A stretch of 64,000 nt of DNA from Vibrio vulnificus NBRC 15645 = ATCC 27562 (GTDB lineage Bacteria; Pseudomonadota; Gammaproteobacteria; Enterobacterales; Vibrionaceae): positions 868,001 through 932,000 of the forward strand of contig NZ_CP012882.1 in assembly GCF_002224265.1 (NCBI RefSeq). The letters run 5' to 3'. Positions 31,442-50,871 of this stretch are shown here, piece after piece; position 1 is the stretch's first letter; every line of letters begins with the position of its first letter. The position numbers were made by a program, and so were the translations under genes. Under the pieces are notes generated by a model. It had not been told where the DNA came from. It saw nothing but the letters and a program-made list of their open reading frames with translations, and did no database searches.

Positions 31442-31786
31442 GCAATGTAGTTCACTTAAGCGGAGCTGCTTTGCGATTAACTGGGTAGCGAGTCTTTGAC
31501 ATTTTTACCGCCCTAGGCCGATTAGGCTTAGGGCGTTTGTCTATAAAGAGGATTGATAAGTCTCCCCTGAGACTCTTTAAACGCTTAGGTGTATTACCTA
31601 GCGACAACGCTTTACTCATCACTTTCAGTTGACTCGCTATAAACTGACAAGCGTATTTAAAGCTAATTTCATTCGGCATTCTTCCATGCTCAACTGCTGC
31701 CTGACTCGCTTCACGTCTTACTAAGTTATAACCAAGCAACAGCCCCCAGAGTTCTTGATAAACAAGGTCTACTGTTTTACTACGTA
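31442..31786 (-). mobile_element. Truncated IS4-family element (3' end remnant)
   Basis: The segment is almost identical to the last 345 bases of the full copy at 50527-50871, inverted. Only one mismatch was noticed, in the region near 31762 (A here, G in the equivalent strand of the full copy). It begins with the IS terminal repeat GCAATGTAGTTCAC and stops abruptly at TACGTA (31786). It encodes only the C-terminal about 110 transposase residues (HGRMPNEISFKYACQFIASQ region onward) and cannot be active, but it supplies an intact outer end. Confidence 0.93.
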
Positions 31787-33526: not shown

Positions 33527-34429
33527 TTATGAGGACAGGCCAAGAAACGCTGCGCCTTTCACTCCGCTGTCGTCACCCAGTTCCGCTTTTAGAATTGGCG
33601 TTTTGCAATAACCACCAAAAACGTACTGGGGCAGATAAGCCGGCAAATCATCATAAATAGATAGCACATTCGACATACCGCCACCGAGTACAATGGCTTG
33701 TGGGTCGAAAAAGTTGATAACCTGCGAGAGTGCACGGGCGAGTTGATCTAAGTAGAGCTCATAGTGGCGTTTTGCTGATTCGGAGTCACTTTTCAGTGCG
33801 ATAATTTCTTGGCTGGTGAGGTTGGTCGCGTGCTTGTCGTTGTACTGTTTTGCAAAACCAGTCCCTGATAGGAATAGCTCATTGCACGCATCGCGACCAC
33901 AGTAACAGTCTTCGGTTTTACCATCTTTCACTTCATCGTAAAAAGCGAGTTGATTGTGTCCCCATTCGCCAGCGACATTATTCGGCCCTTTTACTAACTG
34001 CTTATTGTAAACCACGCCACCACCACAGCCTGTACCTATAATGACACCGAATGCTGAGCCATGATTTTTTGCTGCACCGAAAAGTGCTTCGCTCAATGCA
34101 AAACAATCTGCGTCATTGGCAATATGTACCGTTGCCTTTAAATGCGCTTCCAAATCTTCTTTTAGAGCCTGTCCGTTTAATACCAAAATGTTGGAGTTCT
34201 TGATTTTTTGCGTACCTGGACAGATTGCACCGGGAAGTCCGATACCAATAGAAATCGATTCATCTGCACATGATGCTGCTTGCTCTATGATGGTGATAAC
34301 GTGAGTTAAAAACGCGTCGTAATCACTCTTTATTGTGTTATGGCGTTGATAATAAAGCTGTTCTCCAGCTTCGTTAAACAACGCTGCGGCAATTTTGGTT
34401 CCACCGATATCTAAGCCTAGGTACTGCAT
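33527..34429 (-). CDS. mak: ROK-family fructokinase/mannokinase (Mak-like)
   Basis: This 300-residue ROK sugar kinase has the ATP motif GLDIGGTKIAAAL at the N terminus, the catalytic Asp in ANDADCFALSEA, AGEWGHNQL, and the ROK zinc site CYCGRDACNE. The sequence follows E. coli Mak closely (for example the IIGTGCGGGV and VINFFDPQAIVLGGGMSNV stretches). Mak phosphorylates mannose, fructose and related hexoses in the cytoplasm. In this cargo, mannose released by the GH38 enzyme would become mannose-6-phosphate for ManA. It is encoded with an outer-membrane barrel (10 bases upstream) and a lipoprotein. The exact substrate is inference. Confidence 0.87.
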   Translation of the reverse strand: MQYLGLDIGGTKIAAALFNEAGEQLYYQRHNTIKSDYDAFLTHVITIIEQAASCADESISIGIGLPGAICPGTQKIKNSNILVLNGQALKEDLEAHLKATVHIANDADCFALSEALFGAAKNHGSAFGVIIGTGCGGGVVYNKQLVKGPNNVAGEWGHNQLAFYDEVKDGKTEDCYCGRDACNELFLSGTGFAKQYNDKHATNLTSQEIIALKSDSESAKRHYELYLDQLARALSQVINFFDPQAIVLGGGMSNVLSIYDDLPAYLPQYVFGGYCKTPILKAELGDDSGVKGAAFLGLSS

Positions 34430-34439
34430 AAACTGACTC

Positions 34440-35450
34440 CTATTTACCTAATGGGACATTAAATGTAAGGATTGCAATCGTCTCGCTACGACCATAGTCG
34501 CCACCCACATACATGCTGTCGTTGTAGTGGTAATCCCATAGATCTTGTCCCACCAAGCCTTTAATTGTGACGCCGTTTTCTAGCGTTTTGCTGTAGCTTG
34601 CCTCTAAACGTGTGTAGAACTCGACGAACTTATCGCGAAGTACTTCACTTGAATCGTCCATACCTAGATAAAACTCTAACTTGTTATGCCAAGTGACTTT
34701 GAATCCACCTTCTTTGTACAAGTCGAGCCACGTTTCGTTTTCTGAACCGTAATGGTATTTGATGCCGTCTTTAGCCATCGTATCTAGGTAGTTACGGAAA
34801 CTAAAAATAGACGAAAATCGCTCATTCCACTGTGACACAAGGAAGAAGTTCATCACTTGCTGACGATGTCCGCGATAATGACCACCATTGTGGAACTTAC
34901 TCGTTTCTCCCAGAACAATGTATTCAGTTAAAAGTGGACGGAAGTTAAGTGTGTGTCGACCATTATCCCAAGGCGTTAAACCCTCTGGGAATGAGGTCAG
35001 AAGATCGAACTGTAGATAGTAGTCGTTAGAGCTCCAGTTGAGGTCACCACTGGTGTTTTTGAAGTTCCAATCACCCTCCCAAGCTAAAGCTGGGCGGAAC
35101 TTCCAATCACGGCCGAGGAACTTAATACCGTCGTAGTGAAAGCGTAAATGCGCCTCGTGATCCCAGTGATAACCGTTTTTAAACCATCCATCGCCATTGT
35201 CAGTGAAATAATCGATTCGACGTAAATCGAGCCAAAGATCACTGCCTTCGGTGAGTTGCAACATGCCTTGTAAGAGTTTCTTATTTACTTCGACTTCATC
35301 ACGACTGAAAGGATTAGGAGCATTGTCGTAATCATACCGGAAGTGTCTGAATTCGGTTTCGTTTTGAATCCAGCCTCCGTCTGCCAAAGCTTGAGTAGAA
35401 ACCACAGAACATAACGATAGAGTAAGTAGGGTAAGTGTTTTATTTCTCAT
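34440..35450 (-). CDS. Outer-membrane beta-barrel, putative sugar porin
   Basis: This 336-residue protein is started at ATG 35450 (MRNKTLTLLTLSLCSVVSTQALA-D gives a standard signal peptide; upstream in-frame codons do not). The mature part is rich in aromatic and charged alternating strands typical of barrels such as KdgM/NanC oligosaccharide channels, but it is longer than KdgM (about 236). It likely admits the oligosaccharide used by the cargo pathway. It is the first gene of the leftward barrel-Mak-lipoprotein unit, and a strong CRP-like site lies about 130 bases upstream, consistent with carbon-source control. Family assignment is tentative. Confidence 0.78.
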   Translation of the reverse strand: MRNKTLTLLTLSLCSVVSTQALADGGWIQNETEFRHFRYDYDNAPNPFSRDEVEVNKKLLQGMLQLTEGSDLWLDLRRIDYFTDNGDGWFKNGYHWDHEAHLRFHYDGIKFLGRDWKFRPALAWEGDWNFKNTSGDLNWSSNDYYLQFDLLTSFPEGLTPWDNGRHTLNFRPLLTEYIVLGETSKFHNGGHYRGHRQQVMNFFLVSQWNERFSSIFSFRNYLDTMAKDGIKYHYGSENETWLDLYKEGGFKVTWHNKLEFYLGMDDSSEVLRDKFVEFYTRLEASYSKTLENGVTIKGLVGQDLWDYHYNDSMYVGGDYGRSETIAILTFNVPLGK

Positions 35451-35979
35451 TATTGTCTGATGTCCGTGAATGAATTTCGACACGGATTGTTGAATAAAAA
35501 TTCTCCACAAAAGGGATTCACACAGAGAATATTTAGAGAAGGCGATTAAAGTCACTCAAAATCGACATTTCAATTCGATGAAATGTGGATGACATCACAT
35601 TGGATATTTTGTGATCTTGGTTGGTTTTTGGGCTTGGTGGCTAATTTAATTATTAAAATACAGATAGATATAAAGAGTTGGAGGTCATTAGTAAAATCCA
35701 TTCTGAGAGCGAATCAATTAGTTAACGAGGTATTTTCCATGTTCGATAAAACTCGATGTGATCTTGATCGTTCATAAACGACAAAACTATCAAAATAAAG
35801 AGATCGTGATCACATCAATGACAAAATTGGTCACCAAATGACGTTTGCTTGAAAAAAATAATTAATCTGACCTCAACGCAAAAACTTAAACATTTCAAAA
35901 TTCCGAGCAATCTTTAACTTATTGAATTTCAATGTGTTAATGAGTGTAAGGTAATGTAACAAGGCTCGTTGAGGTCAAT
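35451..35979. promoter_or_regulatory. Divergent control region between the two cargo operons
   Basis: This is 529 AT-rich bases between the leftward barrel-kinase unit and the rightward nanE operon, so both promoters should lie here. It contains a strong CRP-like palindrome at 35581-35602 and weaker half sites (TGTGATC near 35757 and GATCACATC near 35810). No gene is credible inside it. RpiR operators are expected here but could not be picked by eye. Confidence 0.6.
35581..35602. promoter_or_regulatory. Candidate CRP-cAMP site
   Basis: The core TGTGG-N6-TCACA matches 9 of 10 defined bases of TGTGA-N6-TCACA and is flanked by AAA and TTG, as in the extended consensus. It is placed between the two divergent sugar operons, nearer the barrel gene. 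Confidence 0.65.
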
Positions 35980-36669
35980 ATGTTAGTGGCACTTAAAAGC
36001 GAACTTATCGCTTCAGTACAAGCATTACCGCATGAACCGTTATTTGGTTCAGACACCATCGTTAAGATGGCAAAAGCCGTTCTTGAAGGCGGAGCAAAAG
36101 CACTTCGTATTCAGTCAGTTAATGATATTAAAGCGGTAAAAGAAGCGTTTCCAACCGTCCCTGTGATTGGCTTAATCAAGCAAGATTACAGTGACTCTGA
36201 GATCTTTATTACTCCAACTGCAAAAGAGGTACAGGCAATCATCGATTCAGGTGCGGACATGATTGCTCTTGATATGACAGGTCGATCTCGCCCATTTGGT
36301 GAGTCTGTTGAAAGCCTGATTCAACAGATTCGCCGCACTTCTTGTTTAATCATGGCGGATATCGCGACATACGAACAGGGTATTGAAGCTGAAAAGCTCG
36401 GCGTTGATTGTGTGTCGACCACTTTATCAGGATATACGCCGGATACGGCACACCAAGGTGAAGCGCCGGATCTGCCTCTTATTCGTCGTTTGAGTCAATC
36501 ACTGGCCATTCCGGTCATTGCAGAAGGTCGAATTTCGACACCTTTACATGTTTCCCAAGCGATGGCTGCGGGTGCATGGACTGTCGTAGTTGGCTCTGCA
36601 ATAACGCGTCCGCAATTGATCACACAAAAGTTTGCGCAAGCAATTCAAGCAGAGAAGGAGCTGACCTGA
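35980..36669 (+). CDS. nanE: N-acetylmannosamine-6-phosphate 2-epimerase (NanE-like)
   Basis: This 229-residue TIM-barrel protein of the NanE family interconverts ManNAc-6-phosphate and GlcNAc-6-phosphate. The catalytic Lys is visible in VIGLIKQDY and the catalytic Glu in IAEGRI; MADIATYEQGIEAEKLG and STTLSGYT are also family motifs. It is the first gene of the long rightward operon; its TGA overlaps the ATG of the ROK kinase by one base (TGATG). No sialic-acid lyase, transporter or NagA/NagB lies in the cargo, so ManNAc-6-P would have to arise from the adjacent kinase and be drained by chromosomal nag genes. A related 2-epimerisation is an alternative. Confidence 0.88.
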   Translation: MLVALKSELIASVQALPHEPLFGSDTIVKMAKAVLEGGAKALRIQSVNDIKAVKEAFPTVPVIGLIKQDYSDSEIFITPTAKEVQAIIDSGADMIALDMTGRSRPFGESVESLIQQIRRTSCLIMADIATYEQGIEAEKLGVDCVSTTLSGYTPDTAHQGEAPDLPLIRRLSQSLAIPVIAEGRISTPLHVSQAMAAGAWTVVVGSAITRPQLITQKFAQAIQAEKELT

Positions 36670-37604
36670 TGACAGAACTCGCGCTTGGTTTGGATTTAGG
36701 TGGTACGAAGATCCGCGCAGGTCTTGTGGATAGTGAAGGGAAGCTCATCGTAGCAAACACCTCAGCGACCAACATTCGTGAAGGTCGAGAAGGAATTATG
36801 AATAGCATCATCTCGGCGATTGTGCCTTTGCTTACACGCGCTCGTCGAGAAAAGAAGTTACTACTTGGCATCGGCGTCTCGGCTGCGGGTGTGATTAACG
36901 TTCGCTCTGGCTCGGTGTTGGATGCAACAGACAGCTTGCCGAATTGGAAGGGGACGCGTCTGGGTTACTTGCTAGAGGAAGAATTCGGCATTTATGTGGG
37001 TACGGATAACGACGTGAACTGCGCTCTTTTAGGCGAGCAATGGCTAGGCGGAGCTGAAAGCTACAACAGTGTTGTGATGCTCACTCTTGGGACCGGTCTG
37101 GGCGGAGCAATGCTAACCAATGGTCAAATGCTCCACGGTTCAAGTTACTTAGCGGGTCACTGGGGACGAATGGAAGTTCCTCATCCTTACCGACCACAAA
37201 TGAACGTGCCGTTGGAATCGCTGCTATCAGGAACGGGGTTACGCGAAACGCTGTTGTTCCAATTACCGGAAACGGAGCATAAAAGATACCCAGATGGTTT
37301 GAGTGTTATGCAAGCGTATTCCGAGAGAGATCCAAAAGTGATAGCAACGGTGGAAGATTTCATGCGCTTACTATCACGAACCATCAGCAACATTCGTTGG
37401 ACGATGGATCCGCAGTTGGTTCTGCTCGGAGGCGGAATGATTAACTCGCGTGAATACTGGTGGGAATTGATGAACCAGTACCTCAAAGAAATGGGTGTGA
37501 TGACCCCGGTGCGACCAGCCACATTAGGTAATGACGCTGGTATGTATGGCGCTGCAAAAATGGTGTTCAACCATTTTGAAGAACTAAAACAACAACGTGA
37601 CTAA
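36669..37604 (+). CDS. ROK-family sugar kinase lacking the zinc motif (NanK-like position)
   Basis: This 311-residue protein starts at ATG 36669, coupled to nanE. The N-terminal phosphate motif LGLDLGGTKIRAGLVD and the catalytic Asp in GTDNDVNCALLGE are present. The usual ROK zinc site (CxCGxxGCxE) is absent: no cysteines lie in the stretch after the motif, and the preceding His-containing AGEIGH reads AGHWGRM. The sequence still contains LGTGLGGAML and LVLLGGGMI. Coupling to NanE suggests phosphorylation of ManNAc or a similar amino sugar, but the altered motif means a changed substrate or loss of zinc dependence should be considered. Confidence 0.85.
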   Translation: MTELALGLDLGGTKIRAGLVDSEGKLIVANTSATNIREGREGIMNSIISAIVPLLTRARREKKLLLGIGVSAAGVINVRSGSVLDATDSLPNWKGTRLGYLLEEEFGIYVGTDNDVNCALLGEQWLGGAESYNSVVMLTLGTGLGGAMLTNGQMLHGSSYLAGHWGRMEVPHPYRPQMNVPLESLLSGTGLRETLLFQLPETEHKRYPDGLSVMQAYSERDPKVIATVEDFMRLLSRTISNIRWTMDPQLVLLGGGMINSREYWWELMNQYLKEMGVMTPVRPATLGNDAGMYGAAKMVFNHFEELKQQRD

Positions 37605-37635
37605 AGCGGAATGCTGCTTTTAAAGGTCTGAAACT

Positions 37636-40161
37636 ATGTCGAAAAAAATCTGTTCTGTTGTATTTCAAACTCACTGGGATCGTGAATGGTATTTACCATT
37701 TGAGACGTTCCGAGCAAGACTTATCCGTGTAATGGAGCGTGTTGTTGATGCGTTAGAAAAGCATGAACTTGAAAGCTTCTTATTTGATGGTCAAGTGGTC
37801 GCCGCTGAAGATCTATTGGAAGCTTGTGAACCAGAATTGGCAGAAAAACTCTATCGCCAGATGCAAGAAGGACGTTTGGTTCTGGGCCCATGGTATGTCA
37901 TGGCCGATGAATTTTTGTGTAGCGGAGAGAGTTTAATCCGTAACCTAGAGATTGGGCGTAAACTGGCGAACTCGTTGGGCAATTATCAAAAGGTGGGGTA
38001 TCTGCCAGATACGTTTGGCCATATCGGTCAGATGCCTCAACTATTAACTGGTTTCGATATTAACAACATCGTTTTGTGGCGAGGAATTGATGCGGACCAA
38101 TCTGAACTGCGCTGGAAAGGTGCCGACGGCAGCGAGATTTTCACTCTCTTCCTGACTGAGGGTTATTACCAACACCCACTTAACACAGATGACTTCGCTA
38201 CCAACATTGATGTGTACCTGAACAAGATCACTAAACGTGCAACAACGGACAACTTATTGTTGACGCAAGGTGGTGATCATCTGCGTCCAGCAAACGGCAA
38301 CATGGCGGAGCGCGTTGCCGAGTTTAACCACTCTCGTAATGACATTGAGCTTAAACAGAGTGACTTGGCGACATACTTAACTACGCTGCAAAGCGAGGTT
38401 TCAAACGATTTACCCGTTGTGAAAGGCGAGCTTCGTGGAAATGACCGCGCATTTGTTTTACCTGACGTGCTTTCCACACGTCGCTACCTAAAGCAGATGA
38501 ACCAAGAAGCGGAAGACACATTGACTCGCAAAGTCGAGCCGTTACTCGCGATGTCGCCAGTTGAGCACTACCCAACTCGTTTTCTAGAACAAAGTTGGAA
38601 AACACTGCTTACCCAGCATGCTCACGATTCCATTTGTGGTTGTTCTGTTGATGAAGTGCATCGTGAGATGGTCACTCGTTACGAGAAACTTGCTCAACGT
38701 AGTCAAGCCATGATGGACATGGCATTGCTTTCACTAGGCTGCACAAATGATGAGATGAGCGCATCAAACGAAGTAAATCCGTTCGCTGACCACACTCAAT
38801 TCTCTATCTTCAACCCTAATCCAAAAGACTTTAATGGTTGGGTGACTGAGCGAGTGTTCTTGAAAGGTGAGGAAGCGTTCGGCTTACAGCTTGTTCTGGA
38901 AAATGGCGAGTTGATCGAACCGGTGATCACCAAAGCTGAACCGGGTTTTAGCTTTACGTCACCAATTGATGATTTCCCTGATCGAATTGAAGGCGTTTGG
39001 TACAACATTGCTTTCCAGACGGAAATTGAAGGCCTGTCTTTTAAAGCGTTCACAATAGGAAAGTTAGCGACTTCAGAGCCTCTGGTGACCAGTACAATTC
39101 GCACTATCGCTAATGATATTTATCGTGTCGATTGGCATGAGGATGCAACCTTCATCGTTACCGATTTACGTACTCAGCAAGTATTCGATGGACTAGGCAG
39201 AATCGAATCTTCTCTAGACTGTGGTGATAGCTACAACTTTGCTCCGGCGATGAATGATCGCTTTAGCATTGCTCGCACAGTAGGAGAGGTTCAAACGCGC
39301 AATCATTCTAACTACTCAGAGATGAGCGCAAACATCGAGCTTGTTCAGCCTGCTTCCTTATCGAACGACAGAAGAAGCGCAAGTGGTGACAATGTCACGA
39401 GCTTTGGTGTGTTGACGATTAAGCTGTACCAAGATTCAGATTTTATCGATATCGACTTGAAGTGGCACAACCAAGCGAAAGATCAGCGCCTATCTATCCA
39501 TTTCCCGACGGGCGTGACACTAACGGAAACCCAAGCAGACAGTGCGTTTGAAGTCGTCAGTCGCCCAGTTGTTTACCAAGACAATCAACAAGTCCTAGCG
39601 AACAAAGAAGCGAAAGTGTCAGTTAACCCAAGCCAATCTTTTGTTGCTGGTGGCGACTTGCAAATTACTCACGCTGGTGTCCCTGAATATCGAGTAGTTA
39701 AAGGCCGCAGTGACGAAATCGCACTAACGCTGTTACGCAGTGTTGGTTGGTTATCACGTCGTGATTTTTCTACTCGCGGTAATGGCGCAGGTCCGGATTT
39801 ACCAACACCAGAAGCGCAATGCTTAGGTGAGCATCAATATCAACTTCGCTTGCACCTTGGTCAAGAGTCCTCAGAGGTTCAATGCCAACGAGCAGAGCAA
39901 GTTCGATATGCGCCATTTATGGTGAAAGGTCACAGCGACAAGTGGTGTAAGCCGGTCCGTTTAGACAACGCTTCTCTGCAAGTTTCTTGTGTGCGCCGAA
40001 TAAAAGGTGAGCTAGAGATTCGCGTCTGGAACCCTTCAGCACAGTCACAACCGATTGTAATTTCTGAGCAATATCGCGTGGTGAATTTCATTGGTGACGA
40101 GCAAGCGTACCAATCGAATATCGAACCGAATCAGATTTTAACTTTGCGTCTACCTGCGTAG
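37636..40161 (+). CDS. mngB: GH38 alpha-mannosidase (MngB-like)
   Basis: This is an 841-residue cytoplasmic glycoside hydrolase of family 38; no signal peptide is present. The zinc and active-site motifs are clear: HWDREWY near residue 13, the nucleophile Asp region YLPDTFGH, and HAHDSICGCSVDEVH. Length and order match E. coli MngB, which cleaves 2-O-(6-phosphomannosyl)-glycerate. Here there is no PTS gene, so the substrate probably enters unphosphorylated and mannose is released. It is the third gene of the operon, 31 bases after the ROK kinase. Its product fits the Mak-like kinase and ManA in the same cargo. The precise mannoside is unknown, and the gene symbol is by similarity only. Confidence 0.88.
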   Translation: MSKKICSVVFQTHWDREWYLPFETFRARLIRVMERVVDALEKHELESFLFDGQVVAAEDLLEACEPELAEKLYRQMQEGRLVLGPWYVMADEFLCSGESLIRNLEIGRKLANSLGNYQKVGYLPDTFGHIGQMPQLLTGFDINNIVLWRGIDADQSELRWKGADGSEIFTLFLTEGYYQHPLNTDDFATNIDVYLNKITKRATTDNLLLTQGGDHLRPANGNMAERVAEFNHSRNDIELKQSDLATYLTTLQSEVSNDLPVVKGELRGNDRAFVLPDVLSTRRYLKQMNQEAEDTLTRKVEPLLAMSPVEHYPTRFLEQSWKTLLTQHAHDSICGCSVDEVHREMVTRYEKLAQRSQAMMDMALLSLGCTNDEMSASNEVNPFADHTQFSIFNPNPKDFNGWVTERVFLKGEEAFGLQLVLENGELIEPVITKAEPGFSFTSPIDDFPDRIEGVWYNIAFQTEIEGLSFKAFTIGKLATSEPLVTSTIRTIANDIYRVDWHEDATFIVTDLRTQQVFDGLGRIESSLDCGDSYNFAPAMNDRFSIARTVGEVQTRNHSNYSEMSANIELVQPASLSNDRRSASGDNVTSFGVLTIKLYQDSDFIDIDLKWHNQAKDQRLSIHFPTGVTLTETQADSAFEVVSRPVVYQDNQQVLANKEAKVSVNPSQSFVAGGDLQITHAGVPEYRVVKGRSDEIALTLLRSVGWLSRRDFSTRGNGAGPDLPTPEAQCLGEHQYQLRLHLGQESSEVQCQRAEQVRYAPFMVKGHSDKWCKPVRLDNASLQVSCVRRIKGELEIRVWNPSAQSQPIVISEQYRVVNFIGDEQAYQSNIEPNQILTLRLPA

Positions 40162-40229
40162 TAGAGGCTCCAATACAACACGCCGGAGCGTGCTCTGGCC
40201 TCATAACCCTACACATATCGAGAATAACC

Positions 40230-41600
40230 ATGACGAATATAGAAATTCTTCGTTTACTGCTTATTTCTGGCGTACTGATATTTTTCGTTTACGCCATGAT
40301 CACTAAGCGTATCTCCACTCTGATTGCACTGCCAATTATGGGTGTTTTAACCGCTGTAATTGCAAGTGTTGGCGAGCTGCCTTTATTAGGTTTGTTTGCC
40401 CATGAGAATGCGAACGGTGAAGAAGTACAAGGCATCATGAACAGCGTACTTGGCGACGGTGCTCGCATGATGGCATCTACCATCGCGGCAACCATTTTTG
40501 GTGGTGCGTTTGCAGTGCTTTTACGACGTGTCGGCATCGCAGAAGCCATTATCAAGAAAGCCGCAGAACTAGCGGGTGACCGTGTTCGAGTGATTGCCTT
40601 TATCTTTTACGTTGCCACTATGGTGATCTTCTCAGCGATTGGTGGCTTAGGTGCGGTAATACTGATTGGTTCAGTGGCACTGCCTATCATGATGACGGCC
40701 GGTATTTCTGGTGTCGTTTCGGGCGCGATTATCCTGCTTGGTCTGACAACGGGTGGGGTGATGAACCCTGCTGGTTTTGCCTTCTTCGCGACCATCCTTG
40801 AACCAGTTATTGAAGGTGGCTATGAGGCGGCGTATGAAATTGTGGCGCGCATGGCAATCACACTATTCATCATCTCGTTCTTAGTGTCAGTTGTTTACAT
40901 CATGCTGAACGTGAAGAACAACCAACGCAGCGCATGGCACGCAAGAAAAACGCAATCGGCTTACGAGCTAAGTAACTGGGCGCTAATTGCTCCGATTATC
41001 CCGGTACTGCTTGTTTTAAGTTCTATCTATGTGATGCCACAAGTGATCACGGCGGAACTGGCCATCATTGCTGGCATCATCTACACGGTTTACGTTTGTA
41101 AAATCAAAGATAAAGTGAACGCGATTGCTCAATCGTTCGTGCAAGGTACACAAGAAGTCGCGGGCGCAATCGTTCTGCTTATTGGTCTAGGCATTCTGAT
41201 TCGCGGTGTTCAGTTCTACACAGTAACGCCGGTTATTGCGCCTGCGATTGAAATGCTGGTTTCCATGCTACAAAGCCCAATGACTTATGTAATCGGCTTC
41301 ACTCTAGCGACTCCACTTGTTCTGTACCGTGGTCCTCTTAATTCTTGGGGGATCGGTGGTTCACTTCCGGCTATCTTTGCAACCGCAGGTTTCTCTCCAA
41401 TTGCCGTAGTTTGGGTACTTCGCTCTACGGGTATGATGCAAGGCTTTGGTGACCCAACAAACTCTCAAAATATCTGGATTGCCGACTTTGTGCAGGTGGA
41501 CCCGAACGACATCACGAAGAGCTTATTCTGGGTCGGCCTTATCATTACGTTCATCGCACTTGGCTACGCCATTTTAGTTGACCAAATCCCATTGATTTAA
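40230..41600 (+). CDS. Ion-transporter-superfamily permease (CitM/GntP-like)
   Basis: This 456-residue inner-membrane protein has about 11-12 hydrophobic segments. Repeated glycine-rich hairpins (IGGLGAVILIGSVALP and TTGGVMNPAGFAFFATI in the first half, and TPLVLYRGPLNSWGIGGSLPA in the second) are typical of the citrate/gluconate-type ion-coupled carriers, which usually move organic acids with protons or sodium. It lies between the GH38 gene and the hydantoinase-family gene in one operon, so it probably imports the cargo substrate, which may bear an acid group. A 5-bp hairpin (CACGC / GCGTG, 40179-40192) lies before it. The family subgroup is not certain. Confidence 0.85.
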   Translation: MTNIEILRLLLISGVLIFFVYAMITKRISTLIALPIMGVLTAVIASVGELPLLGLFAHENANGEEVQGIMNSVLGDGARMMASTIAATIFGGAFAVLLRRVGIAEAIIKKAAELAGDRVRVIAFIFYVATMVIFSAIGGLGAVILIGSVALPIMMTAGISGVVSGAIILLGLTTGGVMNPAGFAFFATILEPVIEGGYEAAYEIVARMAITLFIISFLVSVVYIMLNVKNNQRSAWHARKTQSAYELSNWALIAPIIPVLLVLSSIYVMPQVITAELAIIAGIIYTVYVCKIKDKVNAIAQSFVQGTQEVAGAIVLLIGLGILIRGVQFYTVTPVIAPAIEMLVSMLQSPMTYVIGFTLATPLVLYRGPLNSWGIGGSLPAIFATAGFSPIAVVWVLRSTGMMQGFGDPTNSQNIWIADFVQVDPNDITKSLFWVGLIITFIALGYAILVDQIPLI

Positions 41601-41607
41601 CCACGGA

Positions 41608-41625
41608 GGGTGGGGCAACCCACCC
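41608..41625 (+). other. Intercistronic stem-loop with GCAA tetraloop
   Basis: The 7-bp GC-rich stem GGGTGGG / CCCACCC closes a GCAA tetraloop between the permease stop and the next start. No T run follows, so it is more likely an RNA-stability or translation element than a terminator. Confidence 0.65.
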
Positions 41626-41657
41626 AAATGAAACAAGCGAAAAACAGGTACAAAGTT

Positions 41658-43784
41658 ATGCGTAAAGTACGAATTGGTATTGATGTTGGCGGTACGTTTA
41701 CTGACGCCGTGGTTATCGATAACACAACGGGTGAAGTGATTGCTAAGGCGAAAAAGCCAACCACTCACCATCACAAAGATGGCGTTGCACAAGGCATCGT
41801 GGAAATCATTAACGAAGTGTTGGACAACAACGGTATTTCTCCAGAGCAAGTGGTGTTCATTGCACACGGCACTACTCAAGCAACCAACGCGTTGCTAGAG
41901 GGTGATGTAGCGAAAGTTGGCATTATCGGCATGGGTAAGAGTAAAGCTGCGTTAAATGAGCTGGATGTCAAAGACATCGAGCTTGCGCCAGGTAAGTTCC
42001 TACAAACCGAGTTTATCTACTTTGACGTTGATGAAATCAACCAAGAAAAAGCAGACAGTGCGATTGATGAACTTGTTGCTAAAGGTTGTGATGTTATCGT
42101 CGCGTCAGAAGCTTACGCCGTGGATGACCCACATCTAGAAAAACTGGTAACAGCTCTAGCGAAAGAGAAAGGTCTGTACGCAACAAGTGGGCACGAAATC
42201 TCCCAGTTATACGGCCTAAGAATGCGCACTCGTACTGCTGTTGTTAACGCGTCATTGATTCCAAAGATGATCGAAACCGCGAACATGACAGAACAAGTCG
42301 TGAAAAAAGTCGGCATCCCTTCAGAGCTGATGATCATGCGCGCCGATGGCGGTGTGATGTCGGTAAATGAAGTACGCCAACGTCCAATCTTGACCATGCT
42401 GTCTGGCTTGGCAGCGGGTGTTGCGGGCGCATTGATGTACGAAAAAATCTCTGACGGTGTGTTCTTCGAGGTCGGTGGTACGTCGATTGATATCTCGGTT
42501 ATCAAAGACGGCAAAGTTATCGTTAACAACGCGCAAGTCGGTAAGCACAAGACTTACTTGAAGGCACTGGATGTACGTACACTGGGTATTGCTGGTGGCT
42601 CGATGATCCGCGTCGGTGATGGAAAGATCATTGATGTTGGCCCACGTTCTGCGCACTTAGCTGACAAGCATTATGAGTGTTTTGTGGACGCGCCAGTGAC
42701 TAATGCGAAGCTTCTACAAATCACACCAATGAAAGGTGATAGCCCTGATCATGCCATCATTACTTCCGACCAAGGTGAATATGCGTACACACTGGCGGGG
42801 GCGGCGAATATCCTAGGTTATGTGCCAGAAGACGACTACGCACATGCGAATGTTGAGGCGGCTCGTGTCGCATGGAAGCCACTGGCTGAATACTGTGGCA
42901 AAACCGTTGAAGAGGTTGCACGCGACGTGATGGACATTGCGTGTGAAAAAATCTGGAACATTGTCGAACCAATGATCAAAGAGTACGAAGTTAATCCTGA
43001 GTACATTGAATTTGTTGGCGGTGGCGGTAGTGCGGCGATTACGACTTTTGCGCTTGGTGAGAAGTACGGATTCAAATCGAAAACGGCAAAAAATGCGCCA
43101 TACATTTCAACCATTGGTGTTGCGATGGCGATGGTTCGTGAGCAAATTGAACGTTCTGTCGTAGATCCATCCGCTTCTGATATTCAAAAAATTCGTTCCG
43201 ACATCATGGACCAAATTGTTGCTCAAGGTGCAAAGGAAGAAAGTGTTGAGATTGCCATCGAAGTGGATAAGCAACGCAACATCTTAATCGCGACGGCGAC
43301 AGGTGCAACGGAGTTTAGCAACAATTCGTCGCAAGATAAGTTGAGTGAGCAAGACATCATCACCAAAGTTGGCGATGTGTTCTCTGTTGAAAAATCGGCG
43401 GTGGAAGCCAAAGACGCAGTAGGTGCATTCCAAATCGTTAAAGCACGTAAAGAAAGCCGCAAGTTCTTCAACTTATTGAAGAAAGAAGAAGACCACTTCG
43501 CTGTCGTGAAATCAGACGGAATGATCCCTCTTAAAATCAAAAACGCACATCACATCAAAGTTCCACGTAGTGGCTATGGTGAAGCGATGAAGAGTTTGGT
43601 GAGTGAATTGTCTTCGTACTCTGATGCGGGTCAGTCGATTCCGAAAGTGTTCGCGTTTACGGGCTCTCGAATGTTTGATTACTCAGGTTTGTTCAGTTCA
43701 GAGCAATTGACCTCAATGATCGCGATGGATCTTGACCATCTCGATGCTGAGCAAGAAGTGTTGCTAGTTGCAGCTAAAAAATAA
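41658..43784 (+). CDS. Hydantoinase/oxoprolinase-family protein
   Basis: This protein has about 708 residues. The start at ATG 41658 places the ATP-binding motif at the N terminus (VRIGIDVGGTFTDAVVID). HGTTQATNALLEG and FFEVGGTSIDISVIKDG are further family motifs. Relatives hydrolyse 5-oxoproline, N-methylhydantoin or caprolactam using ATP, or carboxylate acetone; most act with a HyuB-type partner, which is absent here. The last about 190 residues resemble no family recognised. It is the fifth gene of the operon; its stop is followed 15 bases later by the HExxH gene. The substrate is unknown, and its role may be ring opening or ATP-dependent activation of the released aglycone. Confidence 0.85.
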   Translation: MRKVRIGIDVGGTFTDAVVIDNTTGEVIAKAKKPTTHHHKDGVAQGIVEIINEVLDNNGISPEQVVFIAHGTTQATNALLEGDVAKVGIIGMGKSKAALNELDVKDIELAPGKFLQTEFIYFDVDEINQEKADSAIDELVAKGCDVIVASEAYAVDDPHLEKLVTALAKEKGLYATSGHEISQLYGLRMRTRTAVVNASLIPKMIETANMTEQVVKKVGIPSELMIMRADGGVMSVNEVRQRPILTMLSGLAAGVAGALMYEKISDGVFFEVGGTSIDISVIKDGKVIVNNAQVGKHKTYLKALDVRTLGIAGGSMIRVGDGKIIDVGPRSAHLADKHYECFVDAPVTNAKLLQITPMKGDSPDHAIITSDQGEYAYTLAGAANILGYVPEDDYAHANVEAARVAWKPLAEYCGKTVEEVARDVMDIACEKIWNIVEPMIKEYEVNPEYIEFVGGGGSAAITTFALGEKYGFKSKTAKNAPYISTIGVAMAMVREQIERSVVDPSASDIQKIRSDIMDQIVAQGAKEESVEIAIEVDKQRNILIATATGATEFSNNSSQDKLSEQDIITKVGDVFSVEKSAVEAKDAVGAFQIVKARKESRKFFNLLKKEEDHFAVVKSDGMIPLKIKNAHHIKVPRSGYGEAMKSLVSELSSYSDAGQSIPKVFAFTGSRMFDYSGLFSSEQLTSMIAMDLDHLDAEQEVLLVAAKK

Positions 43785-43799
43785 CCAAGTGAGGTCACA

Positions 43800-44384
43800 A
43801 TGAAGAGCGATATTGAATACGCAAAGATGCAACTGAGCCTAGACAAGTACTTTGGCAAGATTCCTTCGGACATGCATTCGGACATTATCGAGGGCGGTTT
43901 ACAGCTAGGTGAACGCGTAGCGAAAGAGTATCGCTCTGTCGACCTCAAACAAGCTTTTATTGAAGCGGGCTACCGTATTGAATACACCAACAATGCCAAG
44001 CAAGTGTTGAGTCAAGGTTTGCTAATGCGAGCAGAGATCATTGAAGACAACCTTGGTAAGAGAGTGCTGATTTACAAAGATAGCATTGAACAAGCGTTAA
44101 CAGACTTGAGGCAACAAGGAATCAACTCATCGACATCTCAGATTGAACAACTCTATTTAGCGCATGAGTTCTTTCATTTACTTGAGATAGATGAGCATAT
44201 CCAAGATGAAGTGCTATCGCTCAAAGTTGAGCGACTCAAAGTCTTAGGAAAAACCTTCTATGGACGACTGCAGTCTCCTTCGGAAATTGCTTCGAATCGC
44301 TTTGCTCAGTTGGTATGTGAATGCGAGTTTAACCCGCTTTTGATTGACGAATTATTTATCGGAGGTTGTGATGACTCCAACTAA
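43800..44384 (+). CDS. Putative zinc-metalloprotease-like protein with HExxH motif
   Basis: This 194-residue soluble protein has the zincin signature HEFFH (in LAHEFFHLLEIDEH) near residue 123, with acidic residues shortly after that could be the third ligand. No signal peptide. The motif context resembles small ImmA/IrrE-type metallopeptidases, but no DNA-binding partner is fused. It lies between the hydantoinase-family and FAD oxidoreductase genes and overlaps the next start by 14 bases, so it is a true part of the operon. The function is not recognised; a protease, a metal chaperone or a metal-dependent hydrolase on a sugar derivative are all possible. Confidence 0.8.
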   Translation: MKSDIEYAKMQLSLDKYFGKIPSDMHSDIIEGGLQLGERVAKEYRSVDLKQAFIEAGYRIEYTNNAKQVLSQGLLMRAEIIEDNLGKRVLIYKDSIEQALTDLRQQGINSSTSQIEQLYLAHEFFHLLEIDEHIQDEVLSLKVERLKVLGKTFYGRLQSPSEIASNRFAQLVCECEFNPLLIDELFIGGCDDSN

Positions 44385-45711
44385 AACTTATTCAGATTAC
44401 GATGTTGTAGTGGTCGGTGGTGGCACATCTGGTGTTGCAGCGGCGCTGTCAGCGGCAAGACAGGGCTTGAAGGTTGCCTTGCTAGAAAAGCGCATCGCAC
44501 TTACTGGCACGCAAGCCAACGCGATGGTCACACCGTTTATGCCTTCTCATGTCCATGGTTCACAAACTGCTGATCTATTGACAGAACGCTATCATCAAAT
44601 GATGGAAGGGAAAGGCAGGTTAACACTTCCTGGAAAAATGGAGCTTTACTCGCCAGAGTCTTTCAAGTTACTCAATGACCAAGTACTACGTGAGTTTGGT
44701 GTAGAGATCTTTTACGACGCGACGTTGGTAAGCACAAAGACCGAACTAGGGAACATCGAATCCGTTACGGCTTTGATTTTTGATGATTTCTACGCATTTG
44801 AAGCGAAACACTTTATCGATGCTTCGGGTGATGCGCTACTTTCACGTTTTGCAGGTGCGAAGACAGAGAAGGGCGATAAAGATGGCACTCGCCAATCGGT
44901 ATCCTTCCGCTTTGAAGTAACGAATATTGACTTCGCTCGTCTGCGTCATTATCTGAAAGAGGCCAATTACAGCTTCTGTGACCCAAGCGACGCCACGTTT
45001 ATGGAGTTCGTCCATGTTCCGGGTGTTGCTGCGTGTGGGGCTTTATTAGACGTCTTCCAAACGGCGATTGAAGCGGGTGAGATGACACCAGAGATCGCTC
45101 GATACATTCAAGGTTTCTCAATGCCGGGTAAGCCAAACACTTTGTCATTTAATAACCCGCAAATGCCAAACCTTGGCAATATTGAGGATCCTAAAACGTT
45201 TTCTGAATACGTCCGTTATGGTCGTGGCATGCAGCATCAGTTGTTAGCGTTTTTAAATCGACATATCCCGGGTTTCGAGGATGCTTTCATCTCTCAAGAA
45301 GCCAACATGTTAGGTGTCCGCGAATCAAACCGTGTGATGGGTAAATACATTATGACGGGTAGCGATTATGCCGCTCGACGTAAGTTTGAAGATGGCGTTG
45401 CGCGTGGAGATTGGTACATCGACATCCATAGCGATGATCTTGAAGTCGAAGATGAATCGTTCAAAAAGAAATACGACAAGGGTGAGTACTACGAAATCCC
45501 ATATCGTTCGTTGGTTTGTGCAGAAGTAAGCAATTTGATTTTTGTTGGTCGCATCATCTCTTGTGATTTCAAGATGCAATCCAGCATTCGAATTCAGCAT
45601 ACGTGCCGAGATATGGGGGATGCAGCAGGGCGAGCATGCGCATTGGCTAAGCAGCTTAATGTGGCGTTAAACGCTTTAGATGGCTCACTATTAAAACAGG
45701 GGGCATGCTAA
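44371..45711 (+). CDS. FAD-dependent oxidoreductase (FAD_oxidored family)
   Basis: This 446-residue flavoprotein starts at ATG 44371 with GGAGG upstream. The N-terminal dinucleotide motif VVVVGGGTSGVAAALSAARQG binds FAD, and a second motif FIDASGDALLSRFAGA is typical of the PF12831 group. The C-terminal end has RISCDFKMQSSIRIQHTCRDMGDAAGRA. Such enzymes oxidise small organic acids or modify ring compounds. It is in the operon between the HExxH gene (14-base overlap) and the DUF4127 gene, which begins at the base right after its stop. The electron acceptor and substrate are unknown. Confidence 0.87.
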   Translation: MTPTKTYSDYDVVVVGGGTSGVAAALSAARQGLKVALLEKRIALTGTQANAMVTPFMPSHVHGSQTADLLTERYHQMMEGKGRLTLPGKMELYSPESFKLLNDQVLREFGVEIFYDATLVSTKTELGNIESVTALIFDDFYAFEAKHFIDASGDALLSRFAGAKTEKGDKDGTRQSVSFRFEVTNIDFARLRHYLKEANYSFCDPSDATFMEFVHVPGVAACGALLDVFQTAIEAGEMTPEIARYIQGFSMPGKPNTLSFNNPQMPNLGNIEDPKTFSEYVRYGRGMQHQLLAFLNRHIPGFEDAFISQEANMLGVRESNRVMGKYIMTGSDYAARRKFEDGVARGDWYIDIHSDDLEVEDESFKKKYDKGEYYEIPYRSLVCAEVSNLIFVGRIISCDFKMQSSIRIQHTCRDMGDAAGRACALAKQLNVALNALDGSLLKQGAC

Positions 45712-47226
45712 ATGAAGACCTTGTTTATTCCTTTAGATGAGCGTCCGTGCAACTACCTCTATCCGCAGTACATTGCCGAGACATCAGACATTGAACTGAT
45801 TACACCGAGCATGGAGCAATTGAGCTGCAAAAAACAAGCGGCGAACACAGATGCTTTGTGGAACTTCATGTTTGAAAACATTGAAGGGGCAGACAACGTC
45901 GTATTGTCGATGGACATGATGATGTATGGCGGTCTGATCCCTTCAAGACTTCATTATCTAGCGATGGAAGATGTTGCTCGCTTTGAAGATAACCTTCGCA
46001 AGCTAAAGCGCATCAATCCATCAGCAAAGATTTATGCTTATAACTGCATTATGCGCTGTCCTAGTTACAGCAGCAGTGATGAAGAGCCGGAGTATTACGA
46101 TCAATATGGTCATGAAATTTTCCGTCGCAAGTACCTACAAGATAAGCAAGAACGTGAAGAGTTGTCTGAAGAAGAACAAGCAGACTTAGCCCCTTTGGAG
46201 CACTTCGTTCCCGCTGATATCCTGACTGATTTTGAATCTCGTAGAGCATTCAATTTACAGGTGAACTTGGTTGTCGCACAGTTAGTGAAAGAAAAGGTAC
46301 TCGACTTTTTAGTGATTCCGCAAGATGACTCAAGCCCGTTTGGTTATACGGCAATTGACCAACAGAAAGTGATTGCGTTTATAGAGCAAGAGTCTCTGTC
46401 CTTCGATATTGCGATTTATCCTGGCGCGGATGAAGTTGGCGTGACGTTATTGTCTCGTGCTTACAACGAATTCAAACAGCGTAAACCGAAGATTTATCCT
46501 TTCTATGCATCGACACTAGGCCCTCAGATCGTTCCTTTGTATGAAGATCGTCCGATGAACGAGTCAGTGAAATCTCATATCCGAGCGGCTGGTGGCATAT
46601 GGTGCGACAACAGTGCAGAAGCAGACTATGTGCTTGCGATTAACTCGCCGGGCAAGTTCATGCAAGAAGCGGCGAAACAGTCCCAGAAAGATCTCACTTA
46701 CAGCTCTGGACGAAACCTTTCTGATTTTGCACTACGAATCAGTGAGTACATTGAATCTGGAAAGCCGGTCATGGTGGCTGACTGCGCCTTTGCTAACGGT
46801 GGCGACCTAGAGCTGGTGAGTTTTCTCGATAAGCTTCAAGTGCTTGATAAACTTGTCTCTTACAAAGGCTGGAACACCAACTGTAATACGCTCGGAACGA
46901 CATTAGGGGCAGGCATGATTGCCGATGTTTTGAATGCCGCCACGGTAAGAAACCTCTGTTATCACGTGCTTGAGGATGCATGCTACCAGTCAGCTGTGCG
47001 AAGCCAATTATTGGAAAAATACTTCGGTGACGCAGCGTTTGGTCACACCAACTATGCAGATCAAGAGGTCGAGCAAGCTATGGTATTTGCTCAGCAAGCA
47101 TTACAAGCGCAATACCAACGTCTTACTGCAAACTCATTACCGCAAGACATTGAACTAACGGCATTTTCACCTTGGCAACGCACCTTTGAAATTGGTTTGA
47201 ATTTAAAGGTGAATCGTGATGCATGA
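45712..47226 (+). CDS. DUF4127 family protein
   Basis: This 504-residue soluble protein of a family with no established function starts with the characteristic FIPLDERPCNYLYPQYIAE and contains VLSMDMMMYGGLIPSRLHY and IPQDDSSPFGYTAIDQQ, all typical of the family. It begins immediately after the FAD oxidoreductase stop and overlaps the RpiR regulator by 8 bases, so translation is coupled on both sides. Its place in a mannoside operon suggests a carbohydrate-related enzyme, but no catalytic residues can be assigned. It is a prime candidate for new chemistry. Confidence 0.88.
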   Translation: MKTLFIPLDERPCNYLYPQYIAETSDIELITPSMEQLSCKKQAANTDALWNFMFENIEGADNVVLSMDMMMYGGLIPSRLHYLAMEDVARFEDNLRKLKRINPSAKIYAYNCIMRCPSYSSSDEEPEYYDQYGHEIFRRKYLQDKQEREELSEEEQADLAPLEHFVPADILTDFESRRAFNLQVNLVVAQLVKEKVLDFLVIPQDDSSPFGYTAIDQQKVIAFIEQESLSFDIAIYPGADEVGVTLLSRAYNEFKQRKPKIYPFYASTLGPQIVPLYEDRPMNESVKSHIRAAGGIWCDNSAEADYVLAINSPGKFMQEAAKQSQKDLTYSSGRNLSDFALRISEYIESGKPVMVADCAFANGGDLELVSFLDKLQVLDKLVSYKGWNTNCNTLGTTLGAGMIADVLNAATVRNLCYHVLEDACYQSAVRSQLLEKYFGDAAFGHTNYADQEVEQAMVFAQQALQAQYQRLTANSLPQDIELTAFSPWQRTFEIGLNLKVNRDA

Positions 47227-47971
47227 ATCCACGCCACTGCTTGCTACGTTACGTTTAATTAAGCCGGGTTTGAGCCCAGCATTGACTCAACTTGCGGAAT
47301 TTATCGAAGACAACTTGTCATCAGTATCAAGAATGACAGTCACAGAGCTTGCGGAAGTTGCAGATGTTAGCGTTTCTAGTGTTAGCCGTTTAAGCCGCGA
47401 ATTGGGCTACCGCAATTACGGTGACTTTAAGATGGCTGCTCACTCTTCTATTTCCTTTGTTCCCAATGTGAACAGTGGGGCAGAAGTCGATGTGTTAGAT
47501 GAAGCTGAGCAGTTGTTCTCTCTCACTAAAGATCTATTGCGTGACTTTAACTTTGATGAGTTTGGAGCATATTTGCGTCGTAGCAAAGGCGTGTTCGTGG
47601 CTGGTGAAAATACATCGTTAACTCAACTGTTTACCGATGCTTGTCTAAATCACGGTAAACGCGTCGTGCCTTTAACAAGCACCGCGCACTGTGAAGCAAT
47701 TCAGCCAGAGGTTACGTACAAAGACATCTTTATGTTCATCTCCGATTGTCCGCCTAGTGCAGAATGGCTATCGGTACTCCAAGGTCTATCGCAAAGTGAT
47801 TGCGTAACCATTGCTGTCTCTCCGATAGTGCCCGAAGCACTTGGCCAAACGTATCTGGATTATTGGGTTCCTATTATCGGTGAAGGGAGTTCAACCTTTT
47901 CCAGAATCAACACATTACTGACGTTAGAAGTGCTTACTCAGCAACTCAACCTAGATACCAACGTCAACTAA
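47219..47971 (+). CDS. RpiR/MurR-family transcriptional regulator
   Basis: This 250-residue regulator (ATG 47219) has an N-terminal RpiR helix-turn-helix (MTVTELAEVADVSVSSVSRLSRELGYRNYGDFKMA) and a C-terminal SIS sugar-phosphate-binding domain (about 105-240). RpiR proteins respond to phosphosugars such as MurNAc-6-P, GlcN-6-P or ManNAc-6-P. Placed last in the operon with an 8-base overlap, it is likely the local repressor that senses an intermediate of the pathway. Confidence 0.88.
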   Translation: MHESTPLLATLRLIKPGLSPALTQLAEFIEDNLSSVSRMTVTELAEVADVSVSSVSRLSRELGYRNYGDFKMAAHSSISFVPNVNSGAEVDVLDEAEQLFSLTKDLLRDFNFDEFGAYLRRSKGVFVAGENTSLTQLFTDACLNHGKRVVPLTSTAHCEAIQPEVTYKDIFMFISDCPPSAEWLSVLQGLSQSDCVTIAVSPIVPEALGQTYLDYWVPIIGEGSSTFSRINTLLTLEVLTQQLNLDTNVN

Positions 47972-48198
47972 TCACGGAGCGTTGTAGCCATTGTCGTTAC
48001 GGCGCTCGTATTTACAACACTGGCACGCTGGCTTCTTCTCGCTAAGTCTCAGTTAAATAGTTCGGATTGATGATTAAAACCTATCGCCTTCAGCAAAGAA
48101 GGTGAGGGACTTTTGCATCCTGAGTTTGGCTCGTCACCTATTTAATGACGCTAGAAGCGAAGTTTTAGCGACTCAGATTCTCTGTGCAGGAACAAGAA

Positions 48199-49410
48199 AT
48201 GGCGCAAACCGTAATAACGAAATCGAGATTCTTCAAACTCAAAAATACGATTCAGAACTACGTTTGGGGAAGCCCAACACTCTTACCTCAATTGTTCTCT
48301 TTCAATAATGATAAATCTATCTCTATTGCTGAGCTTTGGATGGGAGCAAACTCGGGAGGATGCTCATTAGCTCTGATAGATGATCATGACGTGCTGCTTT
48401 CTGACTTGATTGAACAAGATAAGTCCTCATTCCTATCAGAAAAAACAGCCTTAGAGTTTGGTGAACTCCCATACTTGTTAAAAGTGCTGACAGCAGAACG
48501 TGCGTTATCCATTCAAGTTCACCCAGATAAACCCTCAGCTCAAATCGGTTATCAGCGTGAGCAAGAAGCAGGTATCAAGCTGAGTGACTTCAATCGAAAC
48601 TATAAAGATCCAAACCACAAACCGGAGCTTGTTTATGCGCTTGGTAACTTTCAGGCGATGAACGGCTTTCGCCAGTACAAAGAGATTCTAACTTTGTTCA
48701 CTCGCGTCGATGTTTCTGTCTTACGCGACTTGATGTTAGCCTTTGAAAAAAATCAAACTGCACAAGGGCTTGAGGCTTTTTTTGTTGCACTGCTGCAGTT
48801 GGAAAATGACCAGAAACAACAGGCCATCAGAGAACTTGCTCAAAAGTCAGAAAGCTTTATCGGCGAGGAAACGTTTGAGTTGGTTCTCTCTCTCATTGAG
48901 CAATACCCTGAAGATGTTGGTGTGTTCTCACCTTTGTTTTTAAATGTGATTACCTTACAGCCCGGTCAAAGTATGTACTTAACAGCAAGAACACCACATG
49001 CCTACATAAAGGGCGCTTGTATAGAGATCATGGCTAACTCAGATAATGTGCTGCGCGCGGGCCTTACCAGCAAGCATATCGACATCACTGAGTTAGTAAG
49101 CTGCACGAGTTTTGAACCGAAACCGTTTGATACTTTGTTGTTAGAGCCAGAGAAACATGAGGGGCGATCATACTACCCAGTCACTGTTGATGATTTTGCA
49201 TTGGAAGTCATTGAGCAAGAAGCCCAAGAAGTCGCGATTGAAGTTTCCAGTGCTGAAATCATCTTGGCATTGGAGGGAGATACGGTGCTATGCGACAGTT
49301 CTGGGCAGGCTATAACCTTGCAACTTGGGGAGTCAGCGTTTGTTCCGGCGTACACGAAAAGTTATAAGATTCGCTCCAAAGGTAAAGTGATACGAGCGTT
49401 TAACCGTTAG
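48199..49410 (+). CDS. manA: Mannose-6-phosphate isomerase, class I
   Basis: This 403-residue zinc enzyme converts mannose-6-phosphate to fructose-6-phosphate. The start is ATG 48199 (MAQTVITKSRFFKLKN), with AGGAACA before it. The type I cupin features are clear: NYVWGSPTLL, IAELWMGANSGG, the metal motif SIQVHPDKPSAQIGY, and DPNHKPELVYAL. It lies 227 bases after the RpiR gene and on the same strand, probably with its own promoter, and closes the mannose branch of the cargo. The following IS begins 29 bases after its stop and cuts its terminator. Confidence 0.93.
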   Translation: MAQTVITKSRFFKLKNTIQNYVWGSPTLLPQLFSFNNDKSISIAELWMGANSGGCSLALIDDHDVLLSDLIEQDKSSFLSEKTALEFGELPYLLKVLTAERALSIQVHPDKPSAQIGYQREQEAGIKLSDFNRNYKDPNHKPELVYALGNFQAMNGFRQYKEILTLFTRVDVSVLRDLMLAFEKNQTAQGLEAFFVALLQLENDQKQQAIRELAQKSESFIGEETFELVLSLIEQYPEDVGVFSPLFLNVITLQPGQSMYLTARTPHAYIKGACIEIMANSDNVLRAGLTSKHIDITELVSCTSFEPKPFDTLLLEPEKHEGRSYYPVTVDDFALEVIEQEAQEVAIEVSSAEIILALEGDTVLCDSSGQAITLQLGESAFVPAYTKSYKIRSKGKVIRAFNR

Positions 49411-50861: not shown

Positions 50862-50871
50862 ACTACATTGC

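Follow-up and report, generated by a model that had tools for sequence, protein, structure and literature searches.

Within a 64,000-nt stretch of Vibrio vulnificus NBRC 15645 (contig NZ_CP012882.1, positions 868,001 to 932,000; hereafter the window), part of contig 2 in a two-contig genome of 5.0 Mb, lies a gene set (window positions 33,527 to 49,410) that may be a horizontally acquired catabolic system for a small glycan containing both mannose and N-acetylmannosamine (ManNAc), in which a DUF4127 protein would free ManNAc, a reading that we hold tentatively. The evidence that carries it is the association of the gene set in other genomes, which exceeds chance, and the tie between DUF4127 and the epimerase NanE. 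We propose, rather than prove, that DUF4127 is a ManNAc-releasing glycosidase.

DUF4127 and NanE across import types

The two genes at the centre of the comparison are encoded in the window as follows.

35980..36669, + strand: NanE, N-acetylmannosamine-6-phosphate 2-epimerase (Pfam PF04131, 223.6 bits against a cut-off of 27)
45712..47226, + strand: DUF4127 protein, proposed ManNAc-releasing glycosidase (Pfam PF13552, 527 bits against a cut-off of 27)

Two peptide patterns recovered at least 511 DUF4127 relatives, and the best 80 of them defined the loci compared here (handles beginning with L); since these are the best-ranked relatives, the counts favour the subfamily of the window protein, and loci from one genus are non-independent. 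The loci were read with profiles built from the window and the loci, neighbour genes were open frames of at least 80-90 codons grouped by similarity, Pfam scans covered the group representatives only, and NanE was scored as near within 9 kb. By this rule NanE was found near DUF4127 in 51 of the 80 loci, always on the same strand (51/51) and at most 3.2 kb away, compared to a chance expectation of about 0.006 per 20 kb from its density in the genomes of 50 of the 80 loci (200 Mb, 64 matches over the cut-off, including those beside DUF4127). The earlier note had predicted that the unassigned genes of the locus would co-occur outside this genome and had staked its claim on it, and their co-occurrence elsewhere is real.

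The 80 loci fall into non-overlapping import classes, with a phosphotransferase system (PTS) EIIC in 23, an ATP-binding cassette (ABC) binding protein or the permease in 37, and neither in 20. PTS loci held NanE in 20 cases, a HAD phosphatase in 21, GH38 in 1, and neither ROK nor FAD_oxidored in any, whereas the ABC/permease loci held NanE in 26, ROK in 26, FAD_oxidored in 30, GH38 in 16 and HAD in none; in the loci with neither importer the counts were 5 for NanE, 7 for ROK, 2 for FAD_oxidored, 1 for HAD and 0 for GH38. The PTS and ABC/permease classes differed in ROK (Fisher P = 1.4e-8) and FAD_oxidored (P = 1.7e-10), values uncorrected for shared ancestry. Between these two classes, a kinase thus accompanies DUF4127 only where import does not phosphorylate the sugar, which fits ManNAc-6-phosphate (ManNAc-6-P) as the common intermediate, and DUF4127 plus NanE would be the core that persists while transport changes.

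Each of the three EIIC proteins that were scanned scores above the cut-off of the lactose/cellobiose family, and a PTS of this type normally imports a disaccharide. In the PTS operon of L005, which is bounded by opposite-strand genes, the genes run NanE, EIIC, HAD, two for proteins of ~100 aa (presumably IIA and IIB), DUF4127 and one of the RpiR cluster; no recognised glycosidase was found there, the two ~100-aa proteins standing outside the family scan, and DUF4127 is its one unassigned enzyme. GH38, GH84 and esterases occur in some of the loci without a PTS. Because DUF4127 is kept with NanE in PTS loci that lack both FAD_oxidored and the permease-hydantoinase-HExxH set, with GH38 in just one of 23, its action more likely concerns the ManNAc side, and in these loci, where the sugar would arrive phosphorylated and ROK is absent, DUF4127 may cleave a 6-phospho-glycoside to free ManNAc-6-P.

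The AlphaFold2 (AF2) model of the DUF4127 protein (pLDDT 90.2, pTM 0.91) has halves that match Rossmann-like domains (VIA), and no good match was seen among solved structures, with Foldseek TM scores of at most 0.23 among the matches listed, TIM barrels included. A TIM barrel of GH84/GH20 type, guessed from a PQDDS motif, was dropped in view of the Rossmann-like halves and these scores; no glycosidase family stood out among the Foldseek matches listed, which excludes nothing. D9, R11, R79, R115, D205, D206, D240, E241, D357 and R490 are conserved in 47 or more of the 54 divergent sequences and in all 95 near ones, the latter including some Vibrionaceae loci twice. By a crude hydropathy test, a signal-like N-terminus was present in 39 of the 54 divergent proteins compared to 3 of the 95 near ones, a split that might fit a family acting on polymers outside and on oligomers inside the cell.

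DUF4127 could instead be a metal-dependent or phosphate-handling enzyme (phosphatase, epimerase or deacetylase) on the ManNAc-6-P side and no glycosidase, an option that we rate as unlikely. The conserved Asp/Glu/Arg set, several members of which lie just after strands of the alpha/beta model, and the Rossmann-like halves would suit such an enzyme; however, a HAD phosphatase already stands near DUF4127 in 21 of 23 PTS loci, and operons like L005 would then have no glycan-cleaving enzyme.

Several observations weigh against DUF4127 as the ManNAc-releasing partner of NanE. NanE is absent from 29 of the 80 loci by the 9-kb rule (L004 is counted here solely because its NanE sits just past that limit), and 7 of 50 DUF4127 genomes have no NanE over the cut-off, namely both Gemmiger (which hold a nearly full set), four of five cyanobacteria and one Beduini. 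Hungatella does encode NanE, but at another site, where its neighbours are ROK, RpiR and an ABC importer (L198), and most divergent DUF4127 loci are without it. The HAD and FAD_oxidored steps are left without explanation in the proposed route. Finally, in Paenibacillus, four loci that have a binding protein but lack FAD_oxidored (L059, L066, L069 and L070) each encode a member of a protein cluster represented by a Gfo/Idh oxidoreductase; this suggests that sugar oxidation belongs to the non-PTS route, in which FAD_oxidored would probably be a sugar oxidoreductase and a redox-assisted mechanism possible.

In 3-keto-glycoside pathways, glycosides are cleaved by oxidation and elimination, and by analogy DUF4127 and FAD_oxidored might do so jointly. 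The presence of FAD_oxidored in 30 of 37 ABC/permease loci and of the Gfo/Idh-cluster members in the four FAD-less Paenibacillus loci would agree with this idea, but its absence from all 23 PTS loci argues that DUF4127 is not generally FAD-dependent, and we consider joint cleavage improbable.

An independent Bacillota sample, in which DUF4127 was over the cut-off in 46 of 299 genomes, gave 74 rows and 63 fetched loci after four split genes were merged by coordinates (G462:C115, G456:C20, G407:C10, G629, one G626 and two G446 rows were left unfetched on their own). Nine of these loci belong to the near group (NanE in 6, FAD_oxidored in 7) and 54 to divergent groups (NanE in 1, FAD_oxidored in 9, and in 6 a 228-aa barrel protein, c29). 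The c29 profile matches a thiamine-phosphate synthase structure (E 3e-4) and, weakly, NanE structures (E 0.067), a hint of likeness to NanE. Cyanobacterial loci L034, L036, L044, L046, L051, L053, L056, L067, L068 and L082 hold DUF4127 with no NanE nearby, and in L095 and L100 the neighbour of a divergent DUF4127 gene belongs to a protein cluster that includes, in L100, a LytR_CpsA_Psr family protein.

Gene content of the Vibrio locus and the proposed route

Three further Vibrionaceae genomes (L199, L200 and L201, the last from V. mexicanus) share the gene order of the ROK1-channel pair and the NanE-to-RpiR set. The remaining features of the locus are listed below.

33527..34429, - strand: ROK sugar kinase 1 (ROK1), Mak/NagK-like, divergent transcript (Pfam ROK 253 bits)
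34440..35450, - strand: presumed outer-membrane channel, 336 aa, ATG at 35450; no family match; orthologues 79-89% identical in L199, L200 and L201
35451..35979, no strand: divergent control region between the channel gene and NanE
36669..37604, + strand: ROK sugar kinase 2 (ROK2), nearest solved relative N-acetylmannosamine kinase (PDB 5nck, E 1.9e-36)
37636..40161, + strand: GH38 alpha-mannosidase (Pfam GH38N 119.9 bits against a cut-off of 25)
40230..41600, + strand: permease, ion-transporter-like, with weak DcuC resemblance; 90-95% identity in L199 and L200
41610..43784, + strand: hydantoinase/oxoprolinase A-like protein of ATPase fold (Pfam A domain 212.2 bits against a cut-off of 22.9)
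43800..44384, + strand: HExxH metalloprotein, 194 aa, HEFFH motif; no Pfam match
44371..45711, + strand: FAD_oxidored flavoprotein (Pfam 295.7 bits)
47216..47971, + strand: RpiR-family regulator, ATG at 47219 (Pfam HTH_6 42.2 bits)
48184..49410, + strand: ManA, mannose-6-phosphate isomerase, ATG at 48199 (NCBIfam manA 294 bits against a cut-off of 116)

Most identities given in the earlier note held, with both ROK proteins, NanE, GH38, hydantoinase/oxoprolinase A, FAD_oxidored, DUF4127, RpiR (HTH_6) and ManA over the Pfam curated cut-offs, and HEFFH present in the 194-aa product. Its single coupled operon applies to nine genes, NanE-ROK2-GH38-permease-hydantoinase-A-HExxH-FAD_oxidored-DUF4127-RpiR, which share a strand and are spaced by -1, 31, 68, 9, 15, -14, 0 and -8 nt (the ROK2 start overlapping the NanE stop by 1 nt). 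As ROK1 and the presumed channel form a divergent pair on the opposite strand and ManA starts 227 nt past RpiR, these three are neighbours outside the coupled operon. In the divergent region, the blocks TGTGATCT-GAT (35757-35768) and GATCAC (35808-35813) have the same letters in the four Vibrionaceae loci while their surroundings have diverged, and they are likely to be putative operator or CRP-type sites.

Other assignments were less firm. The supposed outer-membrane barrel gave no match in Pfam and NCBIfam scans at E 0.01 and no credible match in the PDB (a single one at E 0.046), and a barrel is a plausible guess. The ion-coupled permease likewise had sub-threshold matches only (NCBIfam DcuC 19.4 bits against a cut-off of 100, and no Pfam family over the cut-off) and stands as a reasonable guess. 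For ROK1, called Mak-type, Mak (NF007108) does top the NCBIfam matches at 321.3 bits, but this is below the curated cut-off of 443, and the best PDB matches are N-acetylglucosamine kinase structures; its orthologues are 68% identical in L200 and 74% in L201, and the L199 stretch holds the first 24 residues only. GH38 passes the cut-off in its middle domain (57.8 bits against 31.1) and falls just below it in the C-terminal domain (23.6 against 25); it carries HWDREWY at 13, LPDTFGH at 123 and HAHDSICG at 328, which we take to be the metal and nucleophile motifs, has PDB structures 5kbp, 3lvt and 2wyh as its nearest, and showed nothing signal-like at an N-terminus judged by eye.

Both branches outlined in the earlier note are encoded, the mannose branch by GH38, the Mak-like ROK and ManA, and the ManNAc branch by ROK2, a relative of N-acetylmannosamine kinase, and NanE. 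The glycan would pass the outer membrane via the divergently encoded channel and the inner membrane via the permease. GH38 would then remove alpha-mannose, which the Mak-like ROK kinase and ManA would carry to fructose-6-phosphate (Fru-6-P), as known for these families. DUF4127 would hydrolyse the bond holding ManNAc, ROK2 would phosphorylate the sugar, NanE would yield N-acetylglucosamine-6-phosphate (GlcNAc-6-P) and NagA of the host would continue, again in the reaction order known for these families.

With regard to the ManNAc source, the genome has a single NanE copy over the family cut-off. It also has two NagA copies over the cut-off and no NanA (TIGR00683) over its own (best 115 bits against 382), which makes a source other than sialic acid likely. 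A sialic acid (nan) system was rejected, as no NanA was over the cut-off. The nan operon consists of NanA-NanK-NanE, and the locus resembles it in having a ROK ManNAc kinase and NanE that feed GlcNAc-6-P and an RpiR regulator; it differs in that the genome is without NanA over the cut-off and DUF4127 stands where a ManNAc source is needed.

The permease, hydantoinase-A and HExxH module

The four unassigned proteins had been regarded as one block that may process the non-mannose part of the substrate, but they separate into two modules with their own distributions. Hydantoinase-A matched at E 1e-130 in 22 of 398 Bacillota genomes, with 26 matches in total, 25 of which were fetched with flanks (the partial G761:C4 was left out, and two genomes give two loci each). 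Within 6 kb of hydantoinase-A, these 25 loci held the permease in 24, HExxH in 19, FAD_oxidored in 13, c29 in 6, ROK in 6 and DUF4127 in 2. Because the permease and HExxH are so frequent and DUF4127 so rare around it, the permease, hydantoinase-A and HExxH form a separate unit from DUF4127 and NanE, and FAD_oxidored occurs with both. In the Vibrio locus the trio may serve as a separate uptake-linked module that replaces the ABC importer or PTS. L180, L181, L182 and L186 show a compact run of the c29 barrel, permease, hydantoinase-A, HExxH and FAD_oxidored with no DUF4127, which is likely a catabolic unit.

The window hydantoinase-A protein shares the A-type domain with N-methylhydantoinase, caprolactamase, 5-oxoprolinase and acetone carboxylase, carries glycine-rich motifs at 22, 287 and 469, and has PDB relatives 7hk5, 6yra and 5svb, with 106.7 bits against the NCBIfam caprolactamase alpha model (cut-off 1000). 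In contrast to these enzymes, no Hydantoinase_B match was found among the 20 window proteins scanned, the remaining genome not being searched for it, and the Bacillota relatives pair with the permease (24/25). An acid or lactam, which the earlier note had proposed for the unassigned enzymes, is one conceivable substrate of the protein. In the HExxH protein, H122, E123, H126, E129 and E162 are invariant in 17 of 17 sequences, a pattern that we take to resemble ImmA/IrrE (M78) peptidases, without a profile match.

A KDPG aldolase, a PfkB kinase or a member of the HUMPS family is encoded in some hydantoinase-A loci, suggesting that sugars or sugar acids are the substrates. These genes would also suit import and degradation of mannosylglycerate or a similar alpha-mannosyl acid, with an MngB-like GH38, an anion-type permease, hydantoinase-A or FAD_oxidored acting on the aglycone, and NanE serving something else. 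The sole NCBIfam match of GH38 is indeed the mannosylglycerate hydrolase MngB (NF007331, 432.3 bits), and the permease is weakly like the dicarboxylate carrier DcuC, with a relative in L104 weakly like CitMHS. However, GH38 is far below the MngB cut-off of 1138, and NanE, a single copy in the genome, shares its strand with DUF4127 at every locus where the two are near each other, so that this explanation appears quite unlikely. The known mannosylglycerate system, mngAB, imports by PTS; the locus is like it in a GH38 that matches the hydrolase model, and differs in the sub-cut-off score, in having a permease rather than a PTS, and in the extra NanE, DUF4127, FAD_oxidored, hydantoinase-A and HExxH.

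Horizontal acquisition and relation to known systems

DUF4127 was present in 3 of 227 Vibrio genomes and in 3 of 296 genomes of the family sample. A midpoint-rooted DUF4127 tree groups the four proteins from Vibrionaceae in a single clade that is embedded in Bacillota sequences and has some from Actinomycetota and Treponema close to it. Given this rarity and tree position, horizontal acquisition of the locus is well supported. Across the Vibrionaceae loci, the permease and hydantoinase-A are among the best conserved genes (88-95%) and RpiR the least (34-64% identity), and ManA occurs in two of the four loci (the window and L201) within the stretches fetched. The GH38 and permease genes of L201, a draft assembly, look split by frame breaks.

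The locus had been called portable, and two features agree with this: L199, L200 and L201 adjoin different open frames from the window locus, and an inverted repeat flanks 18.7 kb including the gene set.

31426..31786, no strand: left arm of the repeat (361 nt), a truncated copy of the IS4-type element on the right in inverted orientation; complementary at 99% to 50527-50887
49683..50861, + strand: IS4-type transposase gene, right-hand copy (Pfam DDE_Tnp_1 75.7 bits, Nterm_IS4 47.1 bits)

The right arm of the repeat (50527-50887) lies at the end of the transposase gene; the test for a composite transposon found a left arm of just 361 nt rather than a full insertion sequence (IS) copy. No empty site was seen in the relatives matched, in which MatE and DUF480, the genes on either flank, lie at a great distance from each other. 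A plasmid origin was rejected, with no near match to plasmids by megablast. Two further genes of the 18.7-kb cargo specify a cupin (about 32639-33055) and a short protein whose domains are of alanyl-tRNA-synthetase type (31847-32491). The window also has a gene for a LuxQ-type kinase at 55260-57833.

A bolder reading, to which we give a minor chance, is that DUF4127 represents a new glycoside hydrolase family without a close solved fold, a beta-N-acetylmannosaminidase (of 6-phospho type in PTS loci) that would be the missing enzyme in the salvage of ManNAc glycans, for instance the linker disaccharide of wall teichoic acid. In the same reading the permease-hydantoinase-A-HExxH trio would be a separate, undescribed module for uptake and activation, with hydantoinase-A working by itself on the sugar once imported. 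The linker, ManNAc-beta-1,4-GlcNAc, is a real ManNAc glycoside of Gram-positive walls (PMC6493773, PMC7086022); it is a substrate candidate for the PTS loci only, as it has no alpha-mannose and would leave GH38 unexplained. A pneumococcal accessory island (PMC3283741) combines a cellobiose/chitobiose-type PTS with a ROK repressor and a protein for which HHpred gives a NanE match, and resembles the DUF4127 PTS loci in a chitobiose-type PTS beside a NanE-like protein, whereas it differs in having sulfatases. In the open-licence PubMed Central library searched, the terms DUF4127 and N-acetylmannosaminidase were absent, and nothing was found on ManNAc linkage-unit catabolism with a PTS and NanE, nor on a link in Vibrio between GH38, hydantoinase, DUF4127 and mannosylglycerate.

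The Vibrio operon is rare and related to operons of Gram-positive bacteria. The permease-hydantoinase-A-HExxH trio, itself set in a clear gene context, poses a further puzzle of its own. The tie of DUF4127 to NanE across PTS, ABC and permease import yields a concrete hypothesis of enzyme activity, and a ManNAc-releasing enzyme, if this activity is real, would supply a step that is lacking in the turnover of cell walls and glycans.

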